NCBI RefSeq assembly: GCF_018320785.1
Contig: NW_024571684.1
Coordinates: forward strand, 30,877-94,876
DNA length: 64,000 nucleotides
Origin: Cheilinus undulatus
Taxonomy: Eukaryota; Chordata; Actinopteri; Labriformes; Labridae
Direction of reading: 5' to 3'
The position numbers were made by a program, and so were the translations under genes. Within the stretch, counting starts at the first letter, position 1; the number at the start of each line of letters is the position of its first letter. The notes beneath the pieces are model-generated. The model was not told the DNA's origin, made no database searches, and was given only the letters and a program-made list of their open reading frames with translations. Shown here piece by piece: positions 3,658 to 63,058 of the stretch.

Positions 3658-3829
3658 TCAGTATCTGTATTTTGTAGAATAATCCTTTGGGGACACCACG
3701 AGACCTCTTCCTTTTCTTGCACCGCGGTAAACGGTTTCAATAATGTCAATCATCTCCTGCTTGTCCTCCATTGTCCAGTTTATCTTGTTGTTGTTTCCAG
3801 TCCCCAGATCAATCATGATGTGCTTGTTC
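3658..3829 (-). CDS. txnl4a: txnl4a exon 3 (terminal coding exon)
   Basis: The acceptor TTTTTCAG precedes GAACAAGCACATC. The exon completes Arg86, then encodes NKHIMIDLGTGNNNKINWTM through the YRGARKGRGL segment to the TGA at 3660-3658. The length is 172 nt. Confidence 0.97.
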
Positions 3830-6800
3830 CTGAAAAATCATTAGAATGATAATAAATGAAACAGAGAAGTTCTGAGGTTTAACAGTGGTTCATTAACTAC
3901 GTCTGACGGAGGGTTTTAAATGACCAAGCCTTTATAGAGAAGAATAAGTTAACCTGTATTACTTTAATCATCATGAAATAATTAACATTTACTCTCATGT
4001 TGTTTGTCTATAAATGAAAATGTCATACCTGAAAAAGAACATGACCGTGCAGGGGTCATACAACTCGTACATCTTGTTGAAGTCAGGTACTTCTGTGATA
4101 TCCACCAGATAGATGACGGCAAAATTCTTGACCTGTCATGACAGGTTAGTGGTTAACAACAACACCTTAATAACAATAAATCAAAAAAGAAACCAAGAAA
4201 ACATTTATCTTGGACTTCTGGTTTTAAGGAGTTAAGGTAGCTGCTTTGTCAGTAAAGTAAAGCCATCATATCCTTCTAATATATTTACATTAGGCCATTA
4301 AAATAAACCCTGAATGATAACAAAAGCAATAAAATTAAAGTTACACCAATAAAGAACCTCAGATTTCACAACACTTTGCTTTGTGTTTGATGTTCCAAAC
4401 TGAGCCAGAAAACTTCAGACTGTGGATTAAATATCCAAAACCCTCTGAAGAGTCAACTAATCAAACCTTCAAAAGAAAAACATCAAATAAATTACATATG
4501 ATGAGGTATTAAAATTGCAGGTTAAATAGGATTTTCAGACAAGTTACTCCATGTCAAGAGCATTTTGATTATGAGCTACAGGTGTATAAAACAACAGCCA
4601 TAGATGACAACAAAAAAAGCTAAAAGGTGGAGAAAATAAAGGCTTGTAGGTCAAGGATTGGACACGATAAATCTTGGTTTTGGTTCAGTTGTTGTTCTGA
4701 CGTTATTCACTTAGAGCAGTGATACTCAACATGTAGCTCATTTGTGATGATTTGTGGCTCTTTTATGTCTAAATTTGAAACATTATTCCTCCAGAAAACC
4801 TTTAAAAAGGACAATTTTACCTCAAAAATCATCCACTGCAAGTAACATTAATCAGTTTGTTTCTCACGCTTATACAGTAGGCTTTAACTGTCATCTCTAT
4901 TTTTGTCTGTATATTTCCGTTGCCCTTATTTGCAATTTTTTGCTACTTTATTTCCATTTTTACTGCTTTTGAGCCATTTTTGATAGGGATGCACCGATCC
5001 ATTTTTTTTCCAGTTCCGATTACCAGTACCAATTCCGATATTTTTTTAACAATTATTATTGTTGTTGGTATGTGTGAGGTTACATGAGGCTGTAGTAAAC
5101 CACCCAGCTCCTCTTATTACAAATTAAAAACATACAAAAATGAATTAAATTTAAATGTATTCCAAACAAATTTATTGTAACTACTACTAAATATTGATTG
5201 ACTAGTCGGTTAAACTAATAACTTATCATTTTTTATGAACATGGGCTTGAAGTCCCTGTCTATAATGCTTTTTAATGAACCTCCCGCCACTAGAGACCGC
5301 TGTAGCTTCAGTCAATGGCCGCAGCCTTCCTCTCTGACCCTTCACCAGATATAAACAATGAGAAGCTCGGCGGTGGCTAACCTGTTAGCGTATAGTAGGA
5401 AGACCGCGGTACGACAGTTTTCCAAAGAAGTAAATGGAAATAAAGTGGTATGTGGGCTGTCGAGGGTTAAGCTCACGTATGACTACTCACCTGAAGTGAA
5501 AAGAGGCCAAATATCAAAGCACCATATTAATCTGTAAAGAGGAACAAAGGCGGGCGACGCTAGCGCTAGCCACGCTGTATTATCATGCTAACGTCACACC
5601 CACTCTTCTTTGTGTTCTCTCATCTTTAGACTAGTTTTGACTATTCTAAATATAAGTTTACGTTTAATCTACTCGGTAATTATATGGCAAAGAACATCCT
5701 AACTAATACTAGCTCAGCTACACAGACTGTCTCGTGTTAGACCGCGGTGCATTCATGGTCTACCGCAAACTGTAAGATGGATTTGGATCAGTCACTTGGA
5801 TCGAGATCGTCAGTCAGTTATCCGATCTATTAATTCCGATACCGATATCGGATCAGATCAGTCCCATCCCTGATTTTGACACTTTTATCCAGCTGTTTGC
5901 TAATTTTTGCACCTTTTCTTTGCCTTCTTTGCCATTTTTTGCCTCATTTAAACTGCCTTTTGCAATTAAATGTCACTACTTTCCCATTTTTCCACTTTGA
6001 TGCTTTTTGCCCATTTTCCCCTGTGTAATTCTGATTTTTGCCTTGTTAAGTCAAATTTCCCTAAGGGAACAATAAAGTGTATCATATCGTATTATATTTT
6101 ACTCATATTTCTCTTGGTTTTTGCCACTTTAGGACCATTTTTGCCACCTGTAACTCGTGTTTTTGCCAATTTGCACCCATTTTTGGCACTTTCTGCCCCT
6201 TTATGCCACTTTCCTCCCAGTGTTTGCCACTTTAGCCCATTTTTAACACTTCTTTTTGTCACTTTTTTCCCCTTTTTGACACTTTTATCTGTTTGCAAAT
6301 TTTTGCACCTTTTTATTGCCATTTTTTTTGCTCATTTAAGCTGCCTTTGCAATTAAATGCCACTAGTTTCCCTTTATCCCACTCTTTGATGCTTTTTGCC
6401 CATTTTTCTCCCCTTTATTCTGATTTTTGCCTATTTAAGTTACTTTTGATTTTTCTCCAGGTTTTAGCCACTTCTGAACCATTTTTCCACCGGTAACTCA
6501 TTTTTTGGTCTCTTTTCACCCATTTCTGACACTTACTTTCTGCCCTTTTATGCCACTTTTCTCCGAGTGTTTGTCGCTTTAAGCCCATTTTTCCCCTTTT
6601 TGACACTTTATTCCTGCTTTGTTTTATTTTTTGACCCTTTTCGCCAATTTAAGCTGCTGTTTGCAATTTAATGCCACTTTTCTCAGATTTTTCCCATTTC
6701 AGTCACTTTTCACTCATTTTTTGCAACGTTTTCGCCACTTTTAACTCATTTGGTCACTTCCCGCCCATTTTTGCCACTTTTCTCCCAGTGTTTGCTGCTC

Positions 6801-9800
6801 TTTGACCACTTTAGCCACCATCAACTTATTTTTATTCCCACTTAACTCCTATTAGATTGTGGCCTTTGTAAATGTATTTTTCAACAGTTTGGCTCTTTGG
6901 TTGAGTAACACTGACTTAGAGACTGACTGACTTCTGCCAGTGTTTACAAATATTCTCTGTTATGAACCAGTTTACCTACAGTCAGTGCTATTGTTCATAT
7001 TCACAGAGCAGCTAACGATGCTAACACCTAAACACACGCTGTTTATAAGCTGCCTCACCTTTTCAGCGATGCTAACACCTAAACACATTAGGCATGTTTA
7101 CATGGACCACTTGCAATCGGAATAAATTCCTGATCGGAATGAAAATGCTTCATATACACACTCCATTCGGAATGAAATCTTCCAATCCGGCGCATTCGGA
7201 AAGGAATTTCACACCGAACGAGAGGGGTGGTTTATGTCAATCATTCAGATCAGCGTCCATGAAAACACTTGATCTGATCACCTCTCCCCGTTTGGGGTGT
7301 TTTTGTCTTACTGCGCATGTCTGCCCCACGTGACATGCTTCGTTATTCTCCTCCTCTGAATGGACTGCAGAAGAAGCCTATGTACCGCTGAGCTGCTTTG
7401 ACAGGGGAAGCACCAGAATATCAGAACTGTCTGCAGCACACGATAAAGGTCTATTTCTAAGTACAATAAAGTAAAAATAAAGATAATATAAAGTACGAAC
7501 ACGAGTGGAAAAACCAATATTTTCGCACGGGGATGAATTGAAAAACACGAGCGAGCGTCCTGACGGTGTAAAGCAGGGTTCCTTACTTTTATCCCAAAAT
7601 ATTTCAAGATCAGAAAGCCGAGGGGCAGACATTGGATTTTTTCCATTACACCATTAAATGTTTTGGATGTTCAAAGATATAATCTAAGCAGGACAGACAT
7701 AAATGTGCTATGGATGACAACATTTTTTAATTTACATTTTTAGACTCATAGAGCTACAACCCTCACCTACTGAGTGAAAACTTGACTTTAGCGCACATAT
7801 GAGCCCTGCAGTTGTTCTTCTGCATATCCATTCAATCAGAATCCCCCTTACTCCCCTGCATGCGTCATGAACTGACCCATCTCTGTGTGTAATTTTGGAT
7901 GCCTTTTAGCACTGCACCAAGTCATAGGACAGCCTGTGTACAGATTAGGATTACATTTGTAGTTATAAAGAATTTGTTTTTACAGTGAGAGGAATTTTTA
8001 CCATTTGATGAGACCCGGAGTTAAAAACACCACAGGATGTCCCGTTTAACTAAGTGATCGAGACCATAATTGCACTTCTTGTTGACATAAAATTATATCG
8101 TATGTAAATAAATTTAGTTTAACTTAGTTTGGCATTAAAGATTTTTATAATAAGGGGTTAAATCAGGCTGAAACTGAACTGAATCACTCACCAAAGTAAG
8201 GTATGATGTCTGTGTTTGTGGCTGATGGACTATTACGCAGGGAAAGTATTTGCTATCCTGACAGCAGCTGTTTTAATCCCTCACAGATAGAAGTTTGGTT
8301 TTTAAAAGGCAAAAACCTCTGGCTCTGATATTTGTTAAGGCCTAGAGATGCAGACAGGACTGCACTCTGTGAGGGAGCGAATTGCAGCTATGCATGGTGG
8401 TTAAATTCTTCATCTTAAAAAAAATAAAACAAAAAAGAATTTAAAAAACATAAAAAGTAGACAAAATAAATTAATCTCCTTCAGTGTAAAAAATCGTGCC
8501 GTCTCAGCCTAGTTTTTGACAGCATGTTTGCAGAGCTGAGAGGATGTGCTGCTGGGCGCTCTGCTGTGTCTTTTAATGATGTTCCTCCCTGCTCTAAAGG
8601 GAGTCAATTTACCATAGGCTATTTAAATCATTTATCGCATTGTATTACGACCTTTCCTTGCTATAATGATAGATAAATTGTGATAAGTGAGTGGAAATTT
8701 GTATGTGAAATACGTTAATATTGTAGATTAATATTAAAAAATATCAATTTTTTTCCCCAAACGTCTTGTGGGCCAGATGACTCCTGTTGGCACTGGACCT
8801 GGCCCGCCGGCCGTCATTTGGGGATGGCTAGTGTAAGTCAGGAGGTTTGTTTACAGATGCAGAAGAAGAATTTCTTCCTCTATGGCAAACTGTCAGTAGA
8901 TTTAACAGGTGGGACGATAAGGCGCATGTCAGAACATTTATATTCAGATCAGACTGAGATGCCTGAGCACATGTATCTGAATCAGATTGAATCTTCCAGC
9001 GTCCGTGTGGACAGAAACGATTTCATCTCTGATCCGAATGAATTTAATCTGATAGTGAAAAAAAGGCTCCTGTAACCGCAGCTAGTGTTTATAAGCTACC
9101 TCACCTTTACAGCCATGCTAACAGCTAAACACTGTTTATAAGCTACCTCACCTTTACAGCCATGCTAACAGCTAAACACTGTTTATAAGCTACCTCACCT
9201 TTACAGCCATGCCAACATCTAAACACACTGTTTATAAGCTACCTCACCTTTACAGCCATGCTAACATCTAAACACACTGTTTATAAGCTACCTCACCTTT
9301 ACAGCCATGCTAACATCTAAACACTGTTTATAAGCTACCTCACCTTTTCAGCCATGCTAACATCTAAACACTGTTTATAAGCTACCTCACCTTTACAGCC
9401 ATGCTAACATCTAAACACTGTTTATAAGCTACCTCACCTTTACAGCCATGCTAACATCTAAACACTGTTTATAAGCTACCTCACCTTTACAGCCATGCTA
9501 ACATCTAAACACTGTTTATAAGCTACCTCACCTTTTCAGCTATGCTAACATCTAAACACTGTTTATAAGCTACCTCACCTTTTCAGCCATGCTAACAGCT
9601 AAACACTGTTTATAAGCTACCTCACCTTTTCAGCCATGCTAACATCTAAACACTGTTTATAAGCTACCTCACCTTTACAGCCATGCTAACATCTAAACAC
9701 TGTTTATAAGCTACCTCACCTTTTCAGCCATGCTAACATCTAAACACTGTTTATAAGCTACCTCACCTTTACAGCCATGCTAACATCTAAACACTGTTTA

Positions 9801-12800
9801 TAAGCTACCTCACCTTTTCAGCCATGCTAACATCTAAACACTGTTTATAAGCTACCTCACCTTTACAGCTATGCTAACATCTAAACACTGTTTATAAGCT
9901 ACCTCACCTTTTCAGCTATGCTAACATCTAAACACTGTTTATAAGCTACCTCACCTTTACAGCCATGCTAACATCTAAACACTGTTTATAAGCTACCTCA
10001 CCTTTACAGCCATGCTAACATCTAAACACTGTTTATAAGCTACCTCACCTTTACAGCTATGCTAACATCTAAACACTGTTTATAAGCTACCTCACCTTTT
10101 CAGCTATGCTAACATCTAAACACTGTTTATAAGCTACCCCACCTTTTCAGCCATGCTAACATCTAAACACACTGTTTATAAGCTACCTCACCTTTACAGC
10201 CATGCTAACATCTAAACACTGTTTATAAGCTACCCCACCTTTTCAGCCATGCTAACATCTAAACACACTGTTTATAAGCTACCTCACCTTTTCAGCCATG
10301 CTAACATCTAAACGTTGTTTATAAGCTACCTCACCTTTTCAGCCATGCTAACACCTAAACACTGTTTATAAGCTACCTCACCTTTTCAGCCATGCTAACA
10401 TCTAAACACTGTTTATAAGCTACCTCACCTTTACAGCCATGCTAACATCTAAACACTGTTTATAAGCTACCTCACCTTTTCAGCCATGCTAACATCTAAA
10501 CACTGTTTATAAGCTACCTCACCTTTTCAGCCATGCTAACATCTAAACACTGTTTATAAGCTACCTCACCTTTTCAGCTATGCTAACATCTAAACACTGT
10601 TTATAAGCTACCTCACCTTTACAGCTATGCTAACATCTAAACACTGTTTATAAGCTACCTCACCTTTACAGCCATGCTAACATCTAAACACTGTTTATAA
10701 GCTACCTCACCTTTTCAGCCATGCTAACATCTAAACACTGTTTATAAGCTACCTCACCTTTACAGCCATGCTAACACCTAAACACTGTTTATAAGCTACC
10801 TCACCTTTTCAGCCATGCTAACATCTAAACACTGTTTATAAGCTACCTCACCTTTACAGCTATGCTAACATCTAAACACTGTTTATAAGCTACCTCACCT
10901 TTACAGCCATGCTAACATCTAAACACTGTTTATAAGCTACCTCACCTTTTCAGCCATGCTAACATCTAAACACTGTTTATAAGCTACCTCACCTTTACAG
11001 CCATGCTAACATCTAAACACTGTTTATAAGCTACCTCACCTTTTCAGCCATGCTAACATCTAAACACTGTTTATAAGCTACCTCACCTTTACAGCCATGC
11101 TAACATCTAAACACTGTTTATAAGCTACCTCACCTTTACAGCTATGCTAACATCTAAACACTGTTTATAAGCTACCTCACCTTTACAGCCATGCTAACAT
11201 CTAAACACTGTTTATAAGCTACCTCACCTTTTCAGCCATGCTAAATGCTAAACACTGTTTATAAGCTACCTCACCTTTACAGCCATGCTAACATCTAAAC
11301 ACTGTTTATAAGCTACCTCACCTTTACAGCTATGCTAACATCTAAACACTGTTTATAAGCTACCTCACCTTTACAGCCATGCTAACATCTAAACACTGTT
11401 TATAAGCTACCTCACCTTTACAGCCATGCTAACATCTAAACACTGTTTATAAGCTACCTCACCTTTTCAGCCATGCTAAATGCTAAACACTGTTTATAAG
11501 CTACCTCACCTTTACAGCCATGCTAACATCTAAACACTGTTTATAAGCTACCTCACCTTTACAGCTATGCTAACATCTAAACACTGTTTATAAGCTACCT
11601 CACCTTTACAGCCATGCTAACATCTAAACACTGTTTATAAGCTACCTCACCTTTACAGCTATGCTAACATCTAAACACTGTTTATAAGCTACCTCACCTT
11701 TTCAGCCATGCTAACAGCTAAACACTGTTTATAAGCTACCTCACCTTTTCAGCCATGCTAACATCTAAACACTGTTTATAAGCTACCTCACCTTTTCAGC
11801 CATGCTAACATCTAAACACTGTTTATAAGCTACCTCACCTTTACAGCCATGCTAACATCTAAACACTGTTTATAAGCTACCTCACCTTTACAGCCATGCT
11901 AACACCTAAACACTGTTTATAAGCTACCTCACCTTTTCAGCCATGCTAACATCTAAACGTTGTTTATAAGCTACCTCACCTTTTCAGCCATGCTAACACC
12001 TAAACACTGTTTATAAGCTACCTCACCTTTACAGCCGTGCTAACACCTAAACACTGTTTATAAGCTACCTCACCTTTTCAGCCATGCTAACACCTAAACA
12101 CTGTTTATAAGCTACCTCACCTTTTCAGCCATGCTAACACCTAAACACTGTTTATAAGCTACCTCACCTTTACAGCCATGCTAACACCTAAACACTGTTT
12201 ATAAGCTACCTCACCTTTTCAGCCATGCTAACATCTAAACACTGTTTATAAGGTACCTCACCTTTTCAGCCATGCTAACATCTAAACACTGTTTATAAGC
12301 TACCTCACCTTTTCAGCTATGCTAACATCTAAACACTGTTTATAAGCTACCTCACCTTTTCAGCTATGCTAACATCTAAACACTGTTTATAAGCTACCTC
12401 ACCTTTACAGCCATGCTAACACCTAAACACTGTTTATAAGCTACCTCACCTTTACAGCCATGCTAACACCTAAACACTGTTTATAAGCTACCTCACCTTT
12501 TCAGCCATGCTAACATCTAAACACTGTTTATAAGCTACCTCACCTTTACAGCCATGCTAACATCTAAACACTGTTTATAAGCTACCTCACCTTTACAGCT
12601 ATGCTAACAGCTAAACACTGTTTATAAGCTACCTCACCTTTACAGCCATGCTAAATGCTAAACACTGTTTATAAGCTACCTCACCTTTACAGCCATGCTA
12701 ACATCTAAACACTGTTTATAAGCTACCTCACCTTTTCAGCCATGCTAAATGCTAAACACTGTTTATAAGCTACCTCACCTTTACAGCTATGCTAACAGCT

Positions 12801-15800
12801 AAACACTGTTTATAAGCTACCTCACCTTTACAGCCATGCTAAATGCTAAACACTGTTTATAAGCTACCTCACCTTTACAGCCATGCTAACATCTAAACAC
12901 TGTTTATAAGCTACCTCACCTTTTCAGCCATGCTAAATGCTAAACACTGTTTATAAGCTACCTCACCTTTACAGCCATGCTAACATCTAAACACTGTTTA
13001 TAAGCTACCTCACCTTTACAGCTATGCTAACATCTAAACACTGTTTATAAGCTACCTCACCTTTTCAGCCATGCTAACAGCTAAACACTGTTTATAAGCT
13101 ACCTCACCTTTTCAGCCATGCTAACATCTAAATACTGTTTATAAGCTACCTCACCTTTACAGCCATGCTAACATCTAAACACTGTTTATAAGCTACCTCA
13201 CCTTTACAGCCATGCTAACATCTAAACACACTGTTTATAAGCTACCTCACCTTTACAGCCATGCTAACATCTAAAAACTGTTTATAAGCTACCTCACCTT
13301 TACAGCTATGCTAACATCTAAACATACTGTTTATAAGCTACCTCACCTTTACAGCCATGCTAACATCTAAACACTGTTTATAAGCTACCTCACCTTTTCA
13401 GCCATGCTAACATCTAAACGTTGTTTATAAGCTACCTCACCTTTTCAGCCATGCTAACACCTAAACACTGTTTATAAGCTACCTCACCTTTTCAGCCATG
13501 CTAACACCTAAACACTGTTTATAAGCTACCTCACCTTTTCAGCTATGCTAACATCTAAACACTGTTTATAAGCTACCTCACCTTTTCAGCTATGCTAACA
13601 TCTAAACACTGTTTATAAGCTACCTCACCTTTACAGCCATGCTAACATCTAAACACTGTTTATAAGCTACCTCACCTTTACAGCTATGCTAACATCTAAA
13701 CACTGTTTATAAGCTACCTCACCTTTTCAGCTATGCTAACATCTAAACACTGTTTATAAGCTACCTCACCTTTACAGCTATGCTAACATCTAAACACTGT
13801 TTATAAGCTACCTCACCTTTTCAGCTATGCTAACATCTAAACACTGTTTATAAGCTACCTCACCTTTTCAGCTATGCTAACATCTAAACACTGTTTATAA
13901 GCTACCTCACCTTTACAGCCATGCTAACATCTAAACACTGTTTATAAGCTACCTCACCTTTACAGCTATGCTAACATCTAAACACTGTTTATAAGCTACC
14001 TCACCTTTTCAGCTATGCTAACATCTAAACACTGTTTATAAGCTACCTCACCTTTACAGCTATGCTAACATCTAAACACTGTTTATAAGCTACCTCACCT
14101 TTTCAGCCATGCTAACATCTAAACACTGTTTATAAGCTACCTCACCTTTACAGCCATGCTAACATCTAAACACTGTTTATAAGCTCCCTCACCTTTACAG
14201 CCATGCTAACATCTAAACACTGTTTATAAGCTACCTCACCTTTACAGCTATGCTAACAACTAAACACACTGTTTATAAGCTAACTCACCTTTTCAGCCAT
14301 GCTAACATCTAAATACTGTTTATAAGCTACCTCACCTTTACAGCCATGCTAACATCTAAAAACTGTTTATAAGCTACCTCACCTTTACAGCTATGCTAAC
14401 ATCTAAACATACTGTTTATAAGCTACCTCACCTTTACAGCCATGCTAACATCTAAACACTGTTTATAAGCTACCTCACCTTTACAGCCATGCTAACATCT
14501 AAACACTGTTTATAAGCTACCTCACCTTTACAGCCATGCTAACATCTAAACACTGTTTATAAGCTACCTCACCTTTACAGCCATGCTAACACCTAAACAC
14601 ACTGTTTATAAGCTACCTCACCTTTACAGCCATGCTAACACCTAAACACTGTTTATAAGCTACCTCACCTTTTCAGCCATGCTAACAACTAAACACTGTT
14701 TATAAGCTACCTCACCTTTTCAGCCATGCTAACATCTAAACACTGTTTATAAGCTACCTCACCTTTTCAGACATGCTAACATCTAAACACTGTTTATAAG
14801 CTACCTCACCTTTACAGCCATGCTAACATCTAAACACTGTTTATAAGCTACCTCACCTTTTCAGCCATGCTAACATCTAAACACTGTTTATAAGCTACCT
14901 CACCTTTACAGCCATGCTAACAGCTAAACACTGTTTATAAGCTACCTCACCTTTACAGCCATGCTAACATCTAAACACTGTTTATAAGCTACCTCACCTT
15001 TACAGACATGCTAACATCTAAACACTGTTTATAAGCTACCTCACCTTTACAGCCATGCTAACAGCTAAACACTGTTTATAAGCTACCTCACCTTTACAGC
15101 CATGCTAACATCTAAACACACTGTTTATAAGCTACCTCACCTTTTCAGCCATGCTAACATCTAAACACTGTTTATAAGCTACCTCACCTTTACAGCCATG
15201 CTAACACCTAAACACTGTTTATAAGCTACCTCACCTTTACAGCCATGCTAACACCTAAACACTGTTTATAAGCTACCTCACCTTTACAGCCATGCTAACA
15301 TCTAAACACTGTTTATAAGCTACCTCACCTTTTCAGCCATGCTAACATCTAAACACTGTTTATAAGCTACCTCACCTTTACAGCCATGCTAACATCTAAA
15401 CACTGTTTATAAGCTACCTCACCTTTACAGCCATGCTAACACCTAAACACACTGTTTATAAGCTACCTCACCTTTACAGCCATGCTAACACCTAAACACT
15501 GTTTATAAGCTACCTCACCTTTTCAGCCATGCTAACAACTAAACACTGTTTATAAGCTACCTCACCTTTTCAGCCATGCTAACATCTAAACACTGTTTAT
15601 AAGCTACCTCACCTTTTCAGACATGCTAACATCTAAACACTGTTTATAAGCTACCTCACCTTTTCAGCCATGCTAACATCTAAACACTGTTTATAAGCTA
15701 CCTCACCTTTACAGCCATGCTAACAGCTAAACACTGTTTATAAGCTACCTCACCTTTACAGCCATGCTAACATCTAAACACTGTTTATAAGCTACCTCAC

Positions 15801-16380
15801 CTTTACAGACATGCTAACACCTAAACACACTGTTTATAAGCTACCTCACCTTTACAGCCATGCTAACACCTAAACACTGTTTATAAGCTACCTCACCTTT
15901 ACAGCCATGCTAACACCTAAACACTGTTTATAAGCTACCTCACCTTTACAGCCATGCTAACATCTAAACACACTGTTTATAAGCTACCTCACCTTTACAG
16001 CCATGCTAACACCTAAACACTGTTTATAAGCTACCTCACCTTTACAGCCATGCTAACATCTAAACACTGTTTATAAGCTACCTCACCTTTTCAGCCATGC
16101 TAACATCTAAACACTGTTTATAAGCTACCTCACCTTTACAGCCATGCTAACATCTAAACACTGTTTATAAGCTACCTCACCTTTACAGCCATGCTAACAT
16201 CTAAACACTGTTTATAAGCTACCTCACCTTTTCAGCGATGCTGTAGAGAACTTCGTCCATTTTCATACACGTTGGGTCCCAGTCGTGTCCGAAGCGGATC
16301 ACCAGGACCCGGTCCTCCTCTGAGAGGATGGCTTGGTCCACCTGCCAGCCATTATGGAGATGTGGTAGCATGTACGACAT
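3658..16380 (-). CDS. txnl4a: Thioredoxin-like 4A (Dim1, U5 snRNP 15-kDa protein), complete CDS in three exons
   Basis: Complement of 3658-3829, 4029-4132 and 16228-16380 gives 429 nt, 142 aa plus TGA, the canonical length for this family. The product begins MSYMLPHLHNGWQVDQAI, includes FGHDWDPTCMKMDEVLYSIA and ends SPKDYSTKYRY. It has a thioredoxin fold without a CXXC redox pair (only DPTC). Known family role: Dim1/Dib1 sits in the U5 / U4-U6.U5 tri-snRNP and is needed for pre-mRNA splicing in the nucleus. TXNL4B is excluded by length and sequence. Intron 1 is 12.1 kb and is filled by a 47-bp satellite that reproduces the exon 1 donor; intron 2 is 199 bp. Intron phases are 0 and 2. The gene looks intact. 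The transcription start was not located. Confidence 0.97.
4029..4132 (-). CDS. txnl4a: txnl4a exon 2
   Basis: The exon is 104 nt, with acceptor CATGACAG before GTCAAGAAT and donor TTCAG|GTATGA. It encodes VKNFAVIYLVDITEVPDFNK and MYELYDPCTVMFFF, residues 52-85, plus two bases of Arg86. Confidence 0.97.
4717..6913. mobile_element. hAT-type MITE with internal satellite and a nested MITE
   Basis: The termini are 'cagtgatactcaac' (4717) and 'gttgagtaacactg' (ending 6913). They are flanked by a perfect 8-bp duplication, acttagag, at 4709-4716 and 6914-6921. The outer ends share 'tttgtggctcttttatgtct' with the element at 1282. The interior is TTTTTGCCAC-like degenerate repeats, broken by another element (4985-5871) and an L2-like tail near 6050-6100 (tttccctaagggaacaataa). 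The element lies in txnl4a intron 1. Confidence 0.87.
4985..5871. mobile_element. Nested agggatgcaccgatcc-type DNA transposon remnant with BED-finger-like fragment
   Basis: The left end 'agggatgcaccgatcc' mirrors the right end 'gatcagtcccatccct'. Target duplication is ambiguous (flanks tttttgat / gattttga). Plus-strand translation from about 5406 reads TAVRQFSKEVNGNKVVCG, then a stretch containing KLTYDYS and ending SKHHINL before a stop. This resembles the start of a BED zinc finger as found in hAT transposases, but the second Cys of the C-x2-C pair is absent. It is probably an internally deleted hAT copy. Confidence 0.6.
7013..7090 (-). repeat. Outlying copies of the txnl4a 47-bp satellite
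   Basis: About one and a half monomers containing 'tttataagctgcctcacc' and 'ttttcagcgatgctaaca'. They retain the G of exon 1 (gcGatgct) where most array monomers have gcCatgct. They are separated from the main array by the insertion at 7091-9085. Confidence 0.8.
7091..9085. mobile_element. About 2-kb insertion splitting the txnl4a satellite
   Basis: Satellite monomers lie on both sides. The left edge carries 'ggcatgtttacatggacca' and repeated 'tcggaat' words, as in teleost MITEs. The right edge has related 'ctgatccgaatgaatttaat' text. The middle (about 7650-8750) looks unique, with a 'gacctggcccgccggcc' patch near 8797 typical of other MITE ends. Exact termini and family were not resolved, and there is no intact open frame. 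Confidence 0.45.
9087..16240 (-). repeat. 7.2-kb 47-bp satellite carrying about 150 copies of the txnl4a exon 1 splice donor
   Basis: Head-to-tail monomers of 47 bp (some 49 bp with an extra 'ac'). On the plus strand each includes tttataagctacctcacc, ttttcagccatgc or tttacagccatgc, and taacatctaaacac. About 7,150 bp / 47 gives about 152 copies. On the transcribed minus strand every monomer reads CTGAAAAG or CTGTAAAG followed by GTGAGGTAGC, which is the exon 1/intron 1 junction. The final monomer is the real junction at 16228. Variants (ctaaatgct, aacacct, cagacatg, aacaact) recur in blocks: the block from about 14581 reappears about 850 bp later, so the array has also grown by larger duplications. 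Confidence 0.97.
16228..16380 (-). CDS. txnl4a: txnl4a exon 1 (first coding exon)
   Basis: 153 nt encode residues 1-51 (MSYMLPHLHNGWQVDQAILS ... MDEVLYSIAEK). The ATG is at 16380-16378 and the donor is GAAAAG|GTGAGG at the edge of the satellite. The last 13 or so exon bases are themselves part of the repeated monomer. Confidence 0.97.
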
Positions 16381-16766
16381 GCTCAAATCTTTGTCTCACT
16401 TCCCAAGCTGGAGAAAAACACATAACACACATCATGTAGCAGGCAGGGGGAGTAAGGTTGGGATGACATCCTTATTTCGCTCCTACATCAGTCCAAACAG
16501 GGACCGTGAGTTTAGGATCGAAAGGCTGGCCTTATGAAACTGAGCTAAGCTAACATTAGCCATTTAGCAACGACAAGTACAGACGGACATTAAAGAAACC
16601 CACTGGAGGAAATTATAAACAGTGTCTAATGAAACCCCTACCGTAAAAACGGAAACGGCGTCTGCCGTTAAGATAACTTGCAGATGTTGGTTACCAGAAG
16701 ATTCTTCTAATTCCAGTAAAGACGGCTGCTCATGGACCTGAACGAAAACGTTTTCCTTGTTTCCCC

Positions 16767-17666: not shown

Positions 17667-19514
17667 AATACAACTGTATACATAAAATACACAACTGTAT
17701 ACATAAAATACACAACTGTATACATAAAATACACAACTGTATATATAAAATACACAACTGTATACATAAAATACACAACTGTATACATAAAATACACAAC
17801 TGTATACATAAAATACACAACTGTATACATAAAATACACAACTGTAAACATAAAATACACAACTGTATACATAAAATACACAACTGTATACATAAAATAC
17901 ACAACTGTATATATAAAATACACAACTGTATATATAAAATACACAACTGTATATATAAAATACACAACTGTATACATAAAATACACAACTGTATATATAA
18001 AATACACAACTGTATATATAAAATACACAACTGTATACATAAAATACACAACTGTATATATAAAATACACAACTGTATATATAAAATACACAACTGTATA
18101 CATAAAATACACAACTGTATATATAAAATACACAACTGTATACATAAAATACACAACTGTAAACATAAAATACACAACTGTATACATAAAATACACAACT
18201 GTATACATAAAATACACAACTGTATACATAAAATACACAACTGTATACATAAAATACACAACTGTATATATAAAATACACAACTGTATACATAAAATACA
18301 CAACTGTATACATAAAATACACAACTGTATATATAAAATACACAACTGTATACATAAAATACACAACTGTAAACATAAAATACACAACTGTATACATAAA
18401 ATACACAACTGTATACATAAAATACACAACTGTATACATAAAATACACAACTGTATACATAAAATACACAACTGTATATATAAAATACACAACTGTACAT
18501 ATAAAATACACAACTGTATATATAAAATACACAACTGTATATATAAAATACACAACTGTACATATAAAATACACAACTGTATATATAAAATACACAACTG
18601 TATATATAAAATACACAACTGTATACATAAATTACACAACTGTATATATAAAATACACAACTGTATATATAAAATACACAACTGTATACATAAAATACAC
18701 AACTGTATATATAAAATACACAACTGTATACATAAAATACACAACTGTATACATAAAATACACAACTGTACATATAAAATACACAACTGTATATATAAAA
18801 TACACAACTGTAAACATAAAATACACAACTGTATATATAAAATACACAACTGTATACATATAATACACAACTGTATATATAAAATACACAACTGTATATA
18901 TAAAATACACAACTGTATACATATAATACACAACTGTATATATAAAATACACAACTGTATATATAAAATACACAACTGTTTATATAAAATACACAACTGT
19001 ATACATAAAATACACAACTGTATATATAAAATACACAACTGTATATATAAAATACACAACTGTATACATAAAATACACAACTGTATATATAAAATACACA
19101 ACTGTATACATAAAATACACAACTGTATATATAAAATACACAACTGTATATATAAAATACACAACTGTATACATAAAATACACAACTGTATATATAAAAT
19201 ACACAACTGTATATATAAAATACACAACTGTATACATAAAATACACAACTGTATATATAAAATACACAACTGTATATATAAAATACACAACTGTATATAT
19301 AAAATACACAACTGTATACATAAAATACACAACTGTATATATAAAATACACAACTGTATACATATAATACACAACTGTATATATAAAATACACAACTGTA
19401 TACATAAAATACACAACTGTATACATAAAATACACAACTGTATATATAAAATACACAACTGTATACATAAAATACACAACTGTATACATAAAATACACAA
19501 CTGTATACATAAAA
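17667..19514. repeat. 21-bp satellite, about 88 copies
   Basis: Tandem acaactgtatacataaaatac monomers, with recurrent variants in the middle word: gtatacata, gtatatata, gtaaacata, gtacatata and rare taatac. The period of 21 is a multiple of three and the monomer lacks stops in several frames. This creates spurious open frames of 113-627 codons on both strands. L1-like fragments flank the array on both sides. It lies between txnl4a and znrf2. Confidence 0.95.
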
Positions 19515-20100
19515 TGAACCTCATTGTATTAATTGGCAAATTCCACAGACATAAAGCAAAGTTCTCAAAGTCCTTCCCAAACTTTTTTTTTTATGATAGA
19601 ATTCAATTCTTATATGAATATGTTAAACTATGTGACAATGTAACACATTTTATCATTTTACAATGAGTTATTTCCTGTAATTCCCACTGACTTACTGTAT
19701 AATCTTAATTTGTTGTGATGTTTTATTTATGTTATCTTTTGTAATATGTTAAGTTTGTTCTTCTTATATAATTATTTGCTTCCTTTGTACCATTAAAAAA
19801 CTGTTTCTTTTTTTGTATGTATTGTGACTTTCAGTTGTCTTCCCTTTAGCAATATTTTCTGTTTTTTTTTCCTTTGTAATGCTTATTAATTTGTTGAACT
19901 GTTGTGTTTGTATTTATGTTTGCCCTTTCACCTGTAGGCTCCGTGCTACGTGTGTGTTTAGTCTTTATGTAGACTCTTTTAAACAACAAAGAAAAAAAGT
20001 AAAATATATAACTTACTGAACCTAGAAACACAGAGAGGCCAGATAAGTTAATACAAGCAAAAAGTAGCCGAGGCATAAATTATGTTTGTAAGTAAATTCA
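19515..20100 (+). mobile_element. L1-like 3' fragment and low-complexity tail after the satellite
   Basis: The text after the array translates with interruptions as a KFHRHKAKFSK-like stretch followed by YDRIQFLYEYVKLCDN, reminiscent of fish L1 ORF2 C-termini. T-rich sequence follows. The match is weak and rests on recall of the family. Confidence 0.35.
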
Positions 20101-23167: not shown

Positions 23168-26100
23168 CTGAAACAGGGAGACGACAGAGAAGTTTGTACC
23201 TTTAAAACCAAGAAGAAACGCCATCATCTCCACGACTCATTTTCTAATACATTCAGTTTTTACAAAACATTTAAATAATGTCATTGCCTGTGCTGTTATT
23301 TTGTAAAAACATATCCCTCTTCTCTTACTATATTTAGCTTCACTCTGATTGGATGGGAGGAGTTAGATCAGTGTTTTTCAAAGTGACGGTCCAGACCTCT
23401 GAGGCAGGGGTGTCAAACTCAAGGCCCGGGGGCCAAATCCGGCCCATGGTACAGTTACACCCAGCCCACCAGGTCATATCGTATTTTTATCATAACTGGC
23501 CAACTGGTTTGAGGACAGCAGATTTCCTCCAGTTTAAAAATGTAAACGTAACCATGGCGATCTAAAATATCCTTGTTAGGATATCCTTGTTTGTGTTCTT
23601 TGTGTATTTAATTTTTATTTTTGCATCACTATTTGTTATTATTATTATTATATATACACTTTTATTATTATATTCTAATATTATGAGTATATATTAACAG
23701 ATAAACATTTTTATTTAATGTAAAATTTTTCTTTTTTTTCCTTTTCCTCCCTCTCTTCATCTCTCACTGTCTCTCATGTACCACTATAATATCACTCGTC
23801 TGTCTTGTTATTTCTCACCAAATTAGAAAAAAAATAAAATTTAAAAATCCTTGTAAAGTCTTGAAAATTAGAAAAAAGTTAAAAGTTAAAATAATTAGAT
23901 AAAAGTCAGGAATGTGGGACAACACATTTCTGTTTTTATTTCAGATTCTTAATTTTGCATTCAGTTATGGTTTGACTTTTTATTTTATATGTTGACCTTT
24001 TTAATTCACAATTTTGACTTTTTATCTTATTTTTTGACCTTATAGATCCCCAATTTTAAATTTTAAGTAATATTTTGACCTTTCAAATTCATTATTATGA
24101 TTTTTTATCTTATTTTTTGACCTTTTTAGCTCCTTACTTTGACTTTTATCTCATAATTTGACCTTGTAGATCCTCAATTTTAAATTTCCTTTAAAACTCA
24201 GTTTAAATATTTTTCTCACTCTTTAATGTTTTAAGCCGCTGATTTTGAATTTATCTAATATTTTGACTGTCAAGAATAATGATTTCAACTTTCTGTCTCA
24301 TATATTTGCCTTTTAAAAACATTATTTTGACTTTGAATGCCAAGTTTTAAACATTTTGAGCTAATAAGTTTGAATTTTTATCTCAGATTCTGAGCCTTTA
24401 AACTTATTACTTCAACCCTTTTCAATCTCAAAATCAATAATCATCAGTTTATCAGGTTTTTTCCCCCATAATTCATTGCTGGTGAAAATGCATTTGACAG
24501 TTTAGGGTTAAATGTGGACCCTGCTCAGCCCTCAGGTTGGACCCAAAGTCAGAATTTGGCCCCTGCTGGGATTTAGTTTGACAGCCCTGCTCTAAGGGGT
24601 CAGGGAATCAGGGCTCTAATGGAGACACGGAGGGAGGAAAAGTCAACCCATGACTCTATTTTTAACAGCAGCATTTTAATTTCTTTTTTCCTTAGTAAAA
24701 TTTGAACCTGCTATTTTTATCTATCTTTTTATCTATCTACTTTTGTATTATCTAATTTATCTACAGCTTTTATTATTTAGTATGTGGTACTTTGCACTGC
24801 ACCGCTGGTGAGAACTTCATCTCGTTTTTATTGTGTATGTGCATACACAGCGTAAAGTGACAATAAAGGAATCTTGAAAAAGATGCTACTGCTGATTATT
24901 AGAGTAATTCAGAGGTTAAAATGTACAAGCATCATCCATTACAGCTTGAATAGGATAAGGATAGGATTCCTCTGCCTTCTATTGTCCAGGGATAAGAGGA
25001 ATGGGCCTCTGATAACGTAAACTAGCATATTTGGCCAACTTTATTAGCTTCACCTCCATCAGTTAAGGAAGGTTCATACTTTAAAAGCAGACATAGTCTA
25101 GTCAGAGCAAAAAACATCTCACATCAGCACGCCTGGCTTTCATTTACAGCATCCTTTAGCGTCTTTTAGCTCTTAGCTAACTGATTATCATACTTTGGAG
25201 CATACATACAGTCTGCACAGAAACACAAACTTGGCTCACTGTTTTTTATTCCAAAAGAAGCTTAGCTAAGCCAAATATAGATAAGAGCTGGAATATCTGG
25301 AATTCTCATAGTTCTAAAATCAATCTCTCTTTTAGTATGGGTCTTTACTGATGTCCACCAGCTCATTTAAATTCTGTTTAAGCGTCACTGGTTATTAGTA
25401 CAACTACGAACAGTGCAAGAGGTGTCAGAACTGTGCAGGGCATTTTTATAAATACATCTGATTAAGACAAATGAAGAAGAATTTGCTAAAATGAGGGTCA
25501 TTTCCTTCCAGAACAACCGCCATTTGTGCTTATAGCCACTTATGCATGAATAATCACGAGTTTGCACATTTTAAAGGGAAAACTTTATTTTAGGTTAATA
25601 TAGCATTCAAATAAATATAACATACAAAAGTATAAGCAAGTGAAGTCTATCGCCCAAACCTGAGGGTGGACCAAGTGGACAAGTGGGTGTGCCCAGGCCC
25701 ATGAGGTGTGCCCCTAACGGCGCGGCTGCTATATGATGGTTGACACGGCGATGTTTGGGAGCCTTCAAATTATTCGACTGGTACAGTTCTCATCTCTGCT
25801 TGTTAGCTCTAAGACCTTAGCCTTAGCTTCACGTCTTTTTTTAGCTTCACTTAGCTTAGTTTAGCTTCGATTAGCTTACCTTAGGTTAGCTTTTGCTTCG
25901 CTTCACTTAGCATAGATTAGCTTCGCTAAGCTTGACTAAGTTCAGTTTATCTTTTTTATAGCTTCACTTAGCTTAGTTTAGCTTCGCTAAGCTTGACTAA
26001 GTTCAGTTTATCTTTGCTTAGCTTCACTTAGCTTAGTTTGGCTTCGCTAAGCTTGACTAAGTTTAGTTTATCTTTTTTAGCTTCACTTAGCTTAGTTTAG

Positions 26101-29100
26101 CTTTGCTTAGCTTACCTTAGGTTAGCTTTTGCTTCGCTTCACTTAGCATAGACTAGCTTTGCTAGCCTAAGTTCAGTTTATCTTTGCTTAGCATCACTTA
26201 GCTTAGGTCAGCTTTTCTTAGCTTAGTTTAGCTTCACTAAGCTTGACTAGGTTCAATTTCTCTTTGCTTATCATCACTTAGCTTAGTTAAGCTTTGCTTA
26301 GCTTAGTTTAATTCAACTTAGCTTAGTATATGTTTAGTTAGCTAAGCTTCACTAACTTTAGCTTAGCTTCACTTAGCTTAGTTTAGCATTGCTTAGTTTA
26401 GCTTCACTTAGCTTAGTTTAGCTTCACTTAATTTAGCTTCACTTAGCTTAGTTTAGCTTCACTTAATTTAGCTTCACTTAGCTTAGTTTAGCTTCACTTA
26501 ATTTAGCTTCACTTAGCTTACTTTAACTAATCTTAGCTTAGTTTAGCTTTACTTAGCTTATTTTAGCTTTACTTAGCTTATTTTAGCTTTGCTTAGCTTT
26601 GCTTCTCTTAGCTCAGTTTAATCTTACTTAGCTCAGTTTAATCTTACTTAGCTCAGTTTAGCTTTGCTTAGCTTTGCTTCTCTTAGCTCAGTTTAATCTT
26701 ACTTAGCTCAGTTTAATCTTACTTAGCTCAGTTTAGCTTTGCTTAGCTTTGCTTCTCTTAGCTCAGTTTAATCTTACTTAGCTCAGTTTAGCTTTGCTTA
26801 GCTTTGCTTCTCTTAGCTCAGTTTAATCTTACTTAGCTCAGTTTAATCTTACTTAGCTCAGTTTAGCTTTGCTTAGCTTTGCTTCTCTTAGCTCAGTTTA
26901 ATCTTACTTAGCTCAGTTTAGCTTTGCTTAGCTTTGCTTCACTTAGCTCAGTTTAATCTTACTTAGCTCAGTTTAATCTTACTTAGCTCAGTTTAATCTT
27001 ACTTAGCTCAGTTTAGCTTTGCTTAGCTTTGCTTCTCTTAGCTCAGTTTAATCTTACTTAGCTCAGTTTAATCTTACTTAGCTCAGTTTAATCTTACTTA
27101 GCTCAGTTTAGCTTTGCTTAGCTTTGCTTCACTTAGCTCAGTTTAATCTTACTTAGCTCAGTTTAATCTTACTTAGCTCAGTTTAGCTTTGCTTAGCACA
27201 GATGTTGTAACAGTGGAACAACTGCTTCTTTTGGGCTCTGTCCAAACAAAACAGAAACATCCACCACCTCTTCAAAAGTACACTAGCAAAGACACTTCAG
27301 CCCATCTTTGCTGAATGTGTAACCTTGAGACAGAAATAGTTTTCATCTTTAAAGCTGAGCTACTCTGGATGTAAGAGCAACAGATTTATGTAAAGGAGTG
27401 TGGTAAATCTTCCCATCTTTCTTTGAAAGCTAACACAATTTGTTAAAGTACACTTGTTGTAGCTTTATTTTTTGGGGGATAATTTAGCACACTTAGTTTA
27501 AAACTGAAAACACATGGTTAGTTTCACTTTTTCTCTATCCAGAATAATTCATGTTGAAGTAAACTTCTGTGACTTTTCTATTTTCCACAAAGAACTTTCA
27601 GCATTTCCATCTTTGTTTTCCTCTGCTGCTGCATGCTGGTGTTGGTGAATATCCAGTGGTGTCTATATCAAAAGGACACATCACCAGTTTAAATAAATAT
27701 ATTTTGTCTTTTTGTGAGACTATTATCACCCTTTTGCTTTTGGTCCGGCAGCATGGTAGCTTATTTTAGCATAGAGCTTGAAAACAGGGCATCTGGCATC
27801 CAAAGGTAAAAAACTCCCCATGTAGCACCTAAAAGTTGACTAATTAACATGCTGTATCACCGTTGTTTAATGCATAAAAGGGTTATGTAACACTTTTTCT
27901 TGGCTGTGTATGTAGGGCACATGTTAAGCATGCTAGGCTGAGTAAACTGGTCATTAGCATTTGCTTTCTATTTACTGCAGAAAATTCGGAGACGTTTAAA
28001 TTAATCATCCACTCTTGGGGGGAAAAGAGTTGTTATTGCATCAAATGTTAACCAGCAGAAATTAATGTTTAAAAAATGCATTGTGCATCTGTCCAACTAT
28101 TTCTAACTGAATTCATGTGTGTTTGCGTCAGTTACCCTTTATGGTAGATACAGAGGCAGGGCAGCCTGGCAATGGTATCTCCCTGCTCCAGCTCCTCTAA
28201 GCAGATGGCACATTCCCCGGAGTCTCTGGACAGGATGTCCTCTGATAAAGACAACATGGAAAGACAACAAACTGAGAAAAGAGAAGTGTACAAAACACTA
28301 TGTATCTGCTTTAGTGTTCAGTTCAGCTGAGGAACTCTGCATAACCAGGTGTTTAACCTTTGCTGCCTAAACACCAGGGGTCAGCTGTGCACAGGAGAGA
28401 ACTTGCATTTCTGCAGGAAGAAGAGGGCTGAACATTAATTTAAAAAACACTGAGTTAATGTCAGTAATCAGATGAACCCTAGATCAGTTATTGATGAAAC
28501 TTCCTTTTGTGTTTACCTGCACATTTATCTACGAAAGGCCCTTGAGTCAAGACTTGGGGCCTAGTTTTGAGACTCTTTATTTGCATTAGAATAAATCTAT
28601 GGGAGAAGAAGATAATTTCAAAAATGCATGGAGAAAAAGTGTTGATTTGATGAATTTTGCACGTGTGTATTAGCATGATAAGATGACACAGCGTGCTGCC
28701 AATGAGCCACATGCTCAGGTTCCACTTATTTATCAGCAGCAGGCATGCTGCCATGGGTGTGTGTGTGCCAGCAGTAAAAAGTGTGCATGTGCAGATCTCT
28801 GCATATTAAACATACAGACAACCTTCTCTTGTTTACCGATATGCATCGCTGTCAGGTCTGGGGAGTTTCTAACTGCAGGAAGTGTTTTGTGAAAGATGCA
28901 TGCTAACAGAGAAAATGTGTTTCCCTTTCCTGTGAGCACATGTAGGTGCATGTGCACGCCCAGGTGCTCACTCACTGCTGGTTTACTGTCATGTTTGTGG
29001 CTGTACCAGTGTGCAGCTGCATTTACTCTGACCATGTTATGCTGCACTCTTTAATGCCTGCAATGCAAGTGCATTTCTAAACTCAAAAGTGTGCATTGTC

Positions 29101-39519: not shown

Positions 39520-41110
39520 GCGGAAAAAAAAGCAGAGACAGAGAGGAAGATGAGGATGACTGAGGAGAAATAAGCAGGGACAGAGATCAAGATGAGGATG
39601 ATAGAGGAGAAGAAAGCAGGGACAGAGATCAAGATGAGGATGATAGAGGAGAAGAAAGGAGGGACAGAGATCAAGATGAGGATGATAGAAGAGAAGAAAG
39701 GAGGGACAGAGATCAAGATGAGGATGATAGAGGAGAAGAAAGGAGGGACAGAGATCAAGATGAGGATGATAGAGGAGAAGAAAGGAGGGACAGAGATCAA
39801 GATGAGGATGATAGAGGAGAAGAAAGGAGGGACAGAGATCAAGATGAGGATGATAGAAGAGAAGAAAGGAGGGACAGAGATCAAGATGAGGATGATAGAA
39901 GAGAAGAAAGGAGGGACAGAGATCAAGATGAGGATGATAGAAGAGAAGAAAGGAGGGACAGAGATCAAGATGAGGATGATAGAGGAGAAGAAAGCAGGGA
40001 CAGAGATCAAGATGAGGATGATAGAGGAGAAGAAAGGAGGGACAGAGATCAAGATGAGGATGATAGAGGAGAAGAAAGCAGGGACAGAGATCAAGATGAG
40101 GATGATAGAAGAGAAGAAAGGAGGGACAGAGATCAAGATGAGGATGATAGAAGAGAAGAAAGGAGGGACAGAGATCAAGATGAGGATGATAGAGGAGAAG
40201 AAAGCAGGGACAGAGATCAAGATGAGGACTGTGGAGGAGAAGAAAGCAGGGACAGAGAGCAAGATGAGGATGACAGAGGAGAAAAAAGCAGGGACAGAGA
40301 TCAAGATAAGGATGATAGAGGAGAAGAAAGCAGGGACAGAGAGCAACATGAGGATGACAGAGGAGAAGAAAGCAGGGACAGAGATCAAGATGAGGAGGAT
40401 GGAGAAGAAAGCAGGGACGGAGATCAAGATGAGGATGATAGAGGAGAAGAAAGCAGGGACAGAGAGCAAGATGAGGATGGTGGAGGAGATAGCAGGGACA
40501 GAGAGCAAGATGAGGAAGATGGAGAAGAAAGCAGGGACGGAGATCAAGATGAGGATGATAGAGGAGAAGAAAGCAGGAACAAAGAGCAAGATGAGGATGA
40601 TAGAGGGGAAGAAAGCAGGGACAGACAGCAAGATGAGGATGGTGGAGGAGAAAGCAGGGACAGAGAGCAAGATGAGGAAGATGGAGAAGAAAGCAGGGAC
40701 GGAGATCAAGATGAGGATGATAGAGGAGAAGAAAGCAGGAACAAAGAGCAAGATGAGGATGGTGGAGGAGAAGAAAGCAGGGACAGAGATCAAGATGAGG
40801 AGGATGGAGAAGAAAGCAGGGACGGAGATCAAGATGAGGATGACAGAGGGAAAAAAAACGGGGACAGAGACCAAGATGAGGATGATAGAAGAGAAGAAAG
40901 CAGGGACAGAGATCAAGATGAGGATGGTGAAGGAGAAGAAAGCAGGGACAGAGACCAAGATGAGGAATGTGGAGGAGAAGAAAGCAGGGACAGAGATCAA
41001 GATGAGGATGGTGGAGGAGAAATAAGCAGGGACAGAGATCAAGATGAGGATGGTGGAGGAGAAACAAGCAGGGACAGAGATCAAGATGAGGATGGTGGAG
41101 GAGAAAGCAG
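39520..41110. repeat. Purine-rich 42-bp satellite, about 37 copies
   Basis: Plus-strand monomers of gggacagagatcaagatgag, gatgatagaggagaagaaag and ca: 42 nt, 14 codons, almost all purine. Variants of 39 nt drop a single GAN triplet, and frames stay open on both strands (477, 542 and 569 codons). Translations (RMIEEKKAGTEIKM or PHLDLCPCFLLLYH) match no family I recognise. No splice, start-context or poly(A) evidence supports coding. The left half is nearly homogeneous and the right half more diverged. Confidence 0.93.
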
Positions 41111-60995: not shown

Positions 60996-63058
60996 AGCAC
61001 AGGCACGCTTGGTGTGACATAATGTGTTATTGACTACAGACGCTCTGGCTCCTGGGTCAACCCCATCTGCTCCCAGCCCGCCCTGCTAGCCTCTGTCACT
61101 GAGGCAGAGGAGGGTGCAGGGAAGGTCTAACCTAGGAGACTTCTGTCAGGACAGGCTGCAAAATATTACAGTAATGCTACAGCGATAAAAGCATGGAGGC
61201 GCTGCTTCTGGTTTAAGGGAGTCTGAAGAGATGTCAGGAGTTTGCAGAAAAAAAAACGCATGGTATTAAAGACTCTTATGTTGCTATAAATGAGTATTTT
61301 CTTTAATTTAACATCATTAAATAACAATAAATATCATTGGTCCATCTATTTTTAGGTAGGGTTTCATTATGGCATGCATTTAGACCTAATAATGACAAAA
61401 GAATGCATCCTATACGGTGGCTCTGAAGGCCACCACGATTAATATTTCAAAAGTGAAATATTTGTACATTTTTTGTGTCTTTTGTGATATATTTTTGTGA
61501 AATATTTTTGTATTGTGAAAAATTTTGATTTGTGAAATATTTTTGTGTTTTGCGATTTTTTTGTGAAATGTTTTTGTTTTGTGAAATATGTTTTGTGTAA
61601 TATTTTTGTGTTTTGTGAAATATTTTTGTTTTGTAAAATATTCATGTGTTTTGATGAAATATTTTTTGTGAAATATTTTTGTTTTATAAAAAATTGTGTG
61701 AAATATTTTTGGTTTTGGTAAAAAAAAATTTGTGAAGCATTTTTGTGTTTTGTGAATTTTTTTGTGTTTTTCTGAATTTTTTTTGTGAAATATTTTTGTG
61801 TTTTGTGAATTTTTTGTGAAAAAAAATGATTTGTGAAATTTTTTGTGTTTTGTGAATTTTTTTGTTGTGAAATATTTTTGTTTTAGGTAAAAAAAAATTG
61901 TGAAGAATTTTTGTGTTTTGTGAATTTTTTGTGTGTTTTTCTGAATTTTTTCGGTGAAATATTTTTGTGTTTTGTGAAATATTTTTTGTGAAATATTTTT
62001 TGTGAAAAATTTTTGTTTTGTGAAATATTTTTGTGTTTTGTGAAATATTTTTGTGTTTTGTGAAATATTTTTTGTGAAATATTTTTTTGTGAAATATTTT
62101 TGTTTTGTGAAATATTTTTTGTGAAATATTTTTGTTTTGTGAAATATTTTTGTGTTTTGTGAAATATTTTTGCTTTGTGAAATATTTTTGTGTTTTGTGA
62201 AATATTTTTTGTGAAATATTTTTGTGTTTTGTGAAATATTTTTGCTATGTGAAATATTTTTGTGTTTTGTGAAATATTTTTTGTGAAATATTTTTGTTTT
62301 GTGAAATATTTTTGTTTTGTGAAATATTTTTGTGTTTTGTGAAATATTTTTGCTTTGTGAAATATTTTTGTGTTTTGTGAAATATTTTTTGTGAAATATT
62401 TTTGTTTTGTGAAATATTTTTGTGTTTTGTGAAACGTTTTTGTGTTTTGGGACATGTATTTGTGTTTTTAATGAAGTTTGTTTTGCACACAAATATTAAT
62501 CCTGTTGTCCCGCAGGGCCACCGTATCCTAAATCAATGACACTACTAATTGGTGAAAAAATAAGGGGGAACACATCAAAAATTGCTTTAGAGAAGTCAGT
62601 GGATTACATGTTTTCAGAATAAATAAATTTGAGCTTTAAGAAGCACATTATGTTCATCGCCAGAAAAAAATAATGCAAAGAAAACATTGGAGGAAAAGCA
62701 GAAATTGTCTGAGGCTACTTCATTTTCATCTCATTGCGTAGGCTCCAAAAGCCACTTCATAAAGCCAAGAGCTTTTATTTTGAAGGTTACAGGCCTCGTG
62801 TTATTGTAACCTGGCTCGCGCGCTGGTGCTGGGTTCACCGGGTTATCGCAGTTGATTATGATGGAGGAAAAACAGCATCGACAGAGAGAGGGAGGGTGCG
62901 GGGTGTGGACCCAAATTAAAATGACATCATCCTCCATTCTTTCCCCCAGACCCCCCCACCACCACCTCTCCCCCCTCCCCATGCACGTCCGTGAGCTAGA
63001 AAACCGTGACCAAGCGCCACAAGCCCACCTCCCGCTGAGCCTCGACACACCTACGGTA

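Follow-up and report, generated by a model that had tools for sequence, protein, structure and literature searches.

Introduction

How does a pre-mRNA come to carry 152 5′ splice sites in tandem, nearly all of them identical, and how is such an arrangement tolerated by its gene? The question is raised by txnl4a of the fish Cheilinus undulatus, in a stretch of 64,000 nucleotides (NCBI RefSeq assembly GCF_018320785.1, contig NW_024571684.1, positions 30,877 to 94,876 of the forward strand). This stretch, referred to below as the window and used for all coordinates, makes up the final 64 kb of its contig, which measures 94,876 bp and carries the sole txnl4a gene found in the assembly. The first 7.1 kb of the 12.1-kb txnl4a intron is filled by a minisatellite whose units resemble the end of the preceding exon together with its 5′ splice site (donor). 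The favored explanation, to which a probability of roughly 0.7 is assigned, is that the minisatellite was born at the txnl4a exon/intron junction, has no dedicated function, and is tolerated because the first donor wins.

The host gene and its array

The txnl4a gene (U5-15kD/Dim1) lies on the minus strand and comprises three coding exons. The coding part of the first (M1-K51; 16228..16380), which ends 3′ in GCTGAAAAG, is supported by matches of the joined protein; coding exon 2 (VKNF...MFFFR) occupies 4029..4132, its start at 4132 being that given in an earlier note on this DNA, and coding exon 3 runs to the stop codon at 3658..3829. When joined, these exons encode a protein of 142 amino acids that is identical to human U5-15kD at 139 of 142 positions and matches Pfam DIM1 (1.8e-71) and PDB entry 1qgv, U5-15kD (9.5e-97). 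The boundary between exons 2 and 3 falls at c.257/258, in agreement with the human TXNL4A acceptor variant c.258-2A>G (PMC5602009). The intron 3′ of the first coding exon measures 12,095 nt, and its donor, AAG/GTGAGG (16222..16230, minus strand; the slash marks the exon/intron boundary), is referred to here as the authentic or first donor. A search of the assembly (1.17 Gb in 46 contigs), with all seven candidates scored, turned up a single copy of txnl4a.

Within this intron, Tandem Repeats Finder (TRF) reported an array at 9086-16242 with a period of 47, 151.7 copies, and 96% matches. When split at the constant CTTATAAAC, the array (9086..16242, minus strand) yields 151 donor-to-donor units of 47 or 49 bp, with copy number and unit order taken from one assembly. 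Head-to-tail tandem units of this size fall within the 15-100 bp by which minisatellites are defined (PMC3618361). Counting the authentic site, there are 152 donors on the minus strand, from the first, whose first intron base lies at + 16227, to the last at + 9104; the tandem series of about 150 donors described in the earlier note is therefore borne out. Their cores are AAG/GTGAGG in 149 cases (the authentic one included), AAG/GTGGGG in two, and AAG/GTGAGT in one, and they are spaced by 47 bp (138 spacings) or 49 bp (13). Both exon-side forms named previously were recovered, with 61 donors carrying CTGAAAAG, including the authentic one, and 91 carrying CTGTAAAG. The segment of the junction equivalent to one unit (16196..16242, minus strand) consists of 15 nt of exon and 32 nt of intron, the similarity to the exon ending farther upstream. 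Co-amplification of exon and intron, as claimed earlier, is thereby upheld, with the proposed sizes of about 13 nt of exon and 33 nt of intron corrected to 15 and 32.

The units fall into 29 distinct sequences among the 151. Their mean pairwise identity, with self pairs counted, is 0.96 across 49 columns, and no exactly repeated block exceeds six units. These features bear on the concern that the length or homogeneity of the array is an artifact of assembly. The contig is rich in further tandem arrays, which would lend some weight to this concern; the 29 unit types, the lack of any exact block longer than six units, and a separate remnant of the array, described below, all argue against it, and such an artifact is considered very unlikely.

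Two further observations concern the array and its surroundings. On the plus strand of 9086-16242, the antisense units resemble 3′ splice sites, with a GCTAAC branch-like motif and CTACCTCACCTTTWCAG; 11 such patterns were counted, using a gap setting that misses the 47-bp units. Upstream of txnl4a, at 16600-16640, TTATAAACAGTGT on the plus strand looks by eye like an inverted unit.

Origin from the exon edge

The exon's final 15 nt, AGCATCGCTGAAAAG, match the array units at 14 of 15 positions at best, and the similarity ends upstream of these. Six unit versions, covering 147 of the 151 units, were compared with the exon, with 58 units matching at 14/15 and 87 at 13/15. The position at which every unit departs from the exon is column 40, which is G in 121 units and A in 30 (151/151), and C in both the exon and the remnant. 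If read as codons, the same 147 units would encode SMAEK (46), SMAVK (69), SIAEK (12), SIAVK (18), or SMSEK (2); the exon edge encodes SIAEK, and the same residues are found in human U5-15kD. This spread of versions in the array, set beside SIAEK in the exon, is what would be expected if constraint acts on the exon but not on the array.

Outside the array there are 160 GTRAG sites on the two strands of the window, of which 159 match no array version at more than 9/15. The single exception, at + 7058, matches an array version at 14/15 and the exon at 15/15. Two DNA searches of the whole assembly, in which very common words were skipped, returned the array and its remnant only, and no arrays at other genome sites of the kind that mark a dispersed satellite family were found in them. 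A genome-wide search for the junction pattern, allowing up to two mismatches, gave 173 matches (12 forward and 161 reverse), compared with one for a reversed-pattern control; among the matches listed, those outside contig C33 were four single sites on four contigs (e.g., AGCATGGCTGTAAAGGTGAGT on contig C24).

It could be argued that the array resembles the exon by chance, or that it invaded the intron from elsewhere in the genome, given that no unit equals the exon edge in full and that the junction pattern has some scattered matches in the genome. Chance resemblance is ruled out by the 159 outside sites at 9/15 or less, and invasion is rejected on the finding of array DNA in the txnl4a intron only, in two assembly searches that skipped very common words; with a remnant that matches the exon at 15/15 and an exon under protein constraint, an origin of either kind is extremely improbable. 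At the level of sequence, the array is shown to derive from the txnl4a exon/intron junction, as the earlier note had proposed in calling it a satellite made out of the host's 5′ splice site, with exon and intron sequence amplified together. It can be described as a junction-derived donor minisatellite, since the end of the host exon and its 5′ splice site lie inside the unit (up to 14/15 in the array and 15/15 in the remnant).

A remnant beyond a dispersed element

The far end of the array is bordered by a dispersed 2-kb element (7087..9085), recognized by its copies on many other contigs, by its ends, and by an empty site. The element is 1,999 bp long and has at least 63 other matches on other contigs, 77-93% identical and several of them near full length (the best 40 of 1786 candidates were scored). 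No open reading frame (ORF) of at least 120 amino acids is present within it. At 11 other loci, its right end is conserved at 53-57 of 60 positions in nine, and its left end at 52 or more of 60 in five and at lower values in the others (ungapped comparison).

On the other side of the element lies the array remnant (7016..7086, minus strand), which was absent from the earlier note and surfaced as one additional match in the genome search, 2 kb past the array. Its AGCATCGCTGAAAAG/GTGAGG is identical to the exon edge, and its two AGCATCG motifs are separated by 51 bp. This motif occurs in four places in the window, namely once at the edge of the exon, at these two sites of the remnant, and at 62874 on the other strand. 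When the flanks of the element are joined, they form a 47-bp unit that matches a real array unit at 46 of 47 positions, the sole difference being the exon's C. On this evidence, the array would formerly have extended past 9086, and the element would have landed inside it. The far end isolated beyond the element appears to have retained the older sequence.

Equal donors and a uniform nonsense outcome

Donor strength was scored with a human 5′ splice-site weight matrix that has a maximum of 12.64. The authentic AAG/GTGAGG scores 11.26 and forms a U1 duplex of -10.1 kcal/mol; AAG/GTGGGG scores 8.69 (-9.3 kcal/mol), AAG/GTGAGT 12.35 (-10.4 kcal/mol), and the exon 2 donor 8.17 (-7.2 kcal/mol). As 148 array copies share the authentic 9-mer, any model that scores the 9-mer alone must give them an equal score. 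Scoring each monomer, as had been suggested, accordingly finds nearly all of them equal to the authentic donor (149 of 152 carry the identical 9-mer); besides these, one donor is stronger and two are weaker yet above the exon 2 donor. The authentic score is reached by 150 of 873 GT dinucleotides in the array stretch, the authentic one included, compared with 3 of 6253 on the two strands outside it. Far into the same intron, at 5490 on the minus strand, a donor-like CAG/GTGAGT scores 12.52 of 12.64.

The earlier note's inference that the spliceosome must pick among these donors, or else that a mixed population of transcripts is made, stands as a prediction from sequence. The consequence of such a choice would be sharply defined. 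The sequence 3′ of the authentic donor reads GTG AGG TAG, with a stop at intron codon 3, and each of the 151 array donors therefore gives the same predicted product (151/151), a truncation of 53 residues ending in AEKVR. The distance from this stop to the last exon junction would be 142 nt with the first array donor and 189 nt with the next. By the usual rule, nonsense-mediated mRNA decay (NMD) is expected when a stop precedes the final exon junction by more than 50-55 nt; with distances of 142 nt or more, these mRNAs are expected to be its targets.

The yeast orthologue of txnl4a is essential, and reduced dosage of the gene causes Burn-McKeown syndrome in people (PMC7876476). Because a single txnl4a was found here, because its orthologue is essential, and because reduced dosage is pathogenic, the first donor must serve a sufficient share of transcripts; its use is thus argued from the function of the gene.

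Variation among the units and possible functions

If the array donors were of use to the host, their cores might be expected to be preserved. The GT at +1/+2 and the G at +5 are intact in all units. Sixteen columns vary: two among the nine that make up the donor core and 14 among the remaining 40, a difference that gave P=0.34 (calculated on 47 columns). This test, whose power is low in a homogenized array, shows no sign that selection either preserves or purges the array donors.

These data bear on three functional readings. In the first, the 151 sites would serve as a landing platform for the U1 small nuclear ribonucleoprotein (snRNP), either shielding the intron, 12 kb in length, against premature polyadenylation or retaining the intron RNA on chromatin, while themselves not being spliced. 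The 148 array donors that share the authentic 9-mer, and hence its U1 duplex energy, would suit such a role, and U1 shielding of transcripts against intronic polyadenylation has been described (PMC5499120); against this, no sequence feature sets the array apart from neutral expansion and the donor cores are not preferentially retained, making a platform unlikely. In the second, a regulated share of array-donor use would yield the 53-residue nonsense mRNAs and, through NMD, tune the level of the U5 protein, perhaps by autoregulation. The identical early stop from 151/151 array donors would serve this purpose well, the host encodes a dosage-sensitive core splicing protein (PMC7876476), and two downstream units of the IFI6 minisatellite serve as donors (PMC4526556). 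The donor cores, however, show no excess conservation (P=0.34) and the array is homogenized (29 distinct sequences among 151 units), and a rheostat of this kind is judged quite unlikely. In the third, which is regarded as very unlikely, the array would act as a sensor of splicing accuracy, with the share of the first donor dropping as splicing capacity or U1 changes and NMD then tuning TXNL4A.

A probably tolerated minisatellite

The order of events, the identity of the donor in use, and the reason for its use are inferred to be as follows. A tandem duplication of the txnl4a exon/intron junction, comprising 15 nt of exon and about 32-36 nt of intron, would have started the array, which later expanded and was homogenized within the intron; the dispersed element would then have split off its far end. 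The array would persist since splicing from the first donor to exon 2 occurs often enough, and use of a downstream copy would lead to the 53-residue truncation, a likely NMD target. The advantage of the first donor may lie in its being the only one attached to a real exon, through exon definition or proximity to the cap, or in its being the earliest transcribed. A candidate 3′ splice site, GTTTTTCTCCAG, lies 5′ of the ATG (16408..16423, minus strand; one of several candidates passed by a crude filter) and may turn the first coding exon into an internal exon of 180 nt. Such an acceptor may allow exon definition over the full exon; failing that, proximity to the cap would apply. When the intron's initial 328 nt were scanned with a crude filter, no sense-strand acceptors able to form micro-exons were found.

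Several points weigh against this account. Where competing strong donors are all bound by U1, the intron-proximal one tends to win. In local folding predictions, the authentic donor has an unpaired probability of 0.004, compared with a median of 0.027 and a lowest value of 0.007 for 36 array donors, and such lower accessibility would favor the array donors. The array contains 302 UUAG motifs, two per unit, which are possible hnRNP A1 sites judging from the motif; their number is not clearly above that expected from composition (P=0.14, Markov sampling). The choice of donor is reported to be pushed toward intron-proximal sites by SRSF1 and toward intron-distal sites by hnRNP A1 (PMC5585400). 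As for the element, no consistent target-site duplication was recognized over 12 loci, this one included, and a repeat finder gave five inverted pairs, none of them terminal; terminal inverted repeats are perceived by eye only.

Other features of the window

The window contains further tandem arrays. Upstream of txnl4a, at 17670-19515, a second satellite of 21 bp x 88 copies has multiple open frames on the two strands. A 42-bp array of 38 copies at 39522-41105 contains a 477-codon open frame on the plus strand (39592-41025, with a KKAGTEIKMRMIEE-like repeat) as well as long open frames on the minus strand. Finally, a long, degenerate 5-bp TTAGC array occupies 25841-27197, part of it with a higher period of 75 bp. 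No Rfam match at the gathering score and no tRNA were found in the window.

Significance and comparison with known systems

Engineered pairs of donors have been the main means of studying how the spliceosome chooses between identical competitors. At txnl4a, nature has set up the experiment: a single pre-mRNA contains 149 donors with the same 9-mer, in a gene that was found once and whose yeast orthologue is essential. Whether the first donor stays in use through exon definition, transcription order, or cap proximity, the rule should be readable from junction counts along the array. In addition, the remnant and the empty site document how a satellite can arise from a splice junction.

The earlier note knew of no described case of this scale. 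As a class, such an array has precedents in two human loci; no case with a comparable number of donors was found in searches of an open-licence library. The first is the minisatellite of IFI6 (6-16, G1P3), reportedly the subject of a 1995 study by Turri, Cuin and Porter. Its unit is 12 bp long and present in tens of copies. This minisatellite provides multiple splice donors, and two downstream units are used, enabling three mRNA species (PMC4526556). The two cases are alike in that a minisatellite supplies multiple donors, those of txnl4a being predicted from sequence. They differ in that the extra donors of IFI6 lead to protein variants, whereas txnl4a has 152 donors, a 47-bp unit, and a predicted stop from every array copy.

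The second precedent, a variable number tandem repeat (VNTR) of CBS, has about 15-21 copies. This 31-bp VNTR lies at the exon 13/intron 13 boundary, and in the work of Lievers et al. (2001) more repeats went with lower CBS activity (PMC5188458). A tandem repeat at an exon/intron boundary is common to both genes; the CBS repeat has a 31-bp unit, far fewer copies than the approximately 151 of txnl4a, and is polymorphic. Drosophila provides a more distant parallel, in that tandem duplication is a shared source of new splice-site arrangements (there, intron sliding or tandem duplication; PMC2891723). That work concerns, by its title, novel intron positions, whereas txnl4a has a long array within an existing intron. 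Judged by its anatomy, the txnl4a array belongs with the IFI6/6-16 and CBS cases, among which it is notable for its number of donors, its uniform nonsense outcome, and a host gene that itself encodes a part of the spliceosome.

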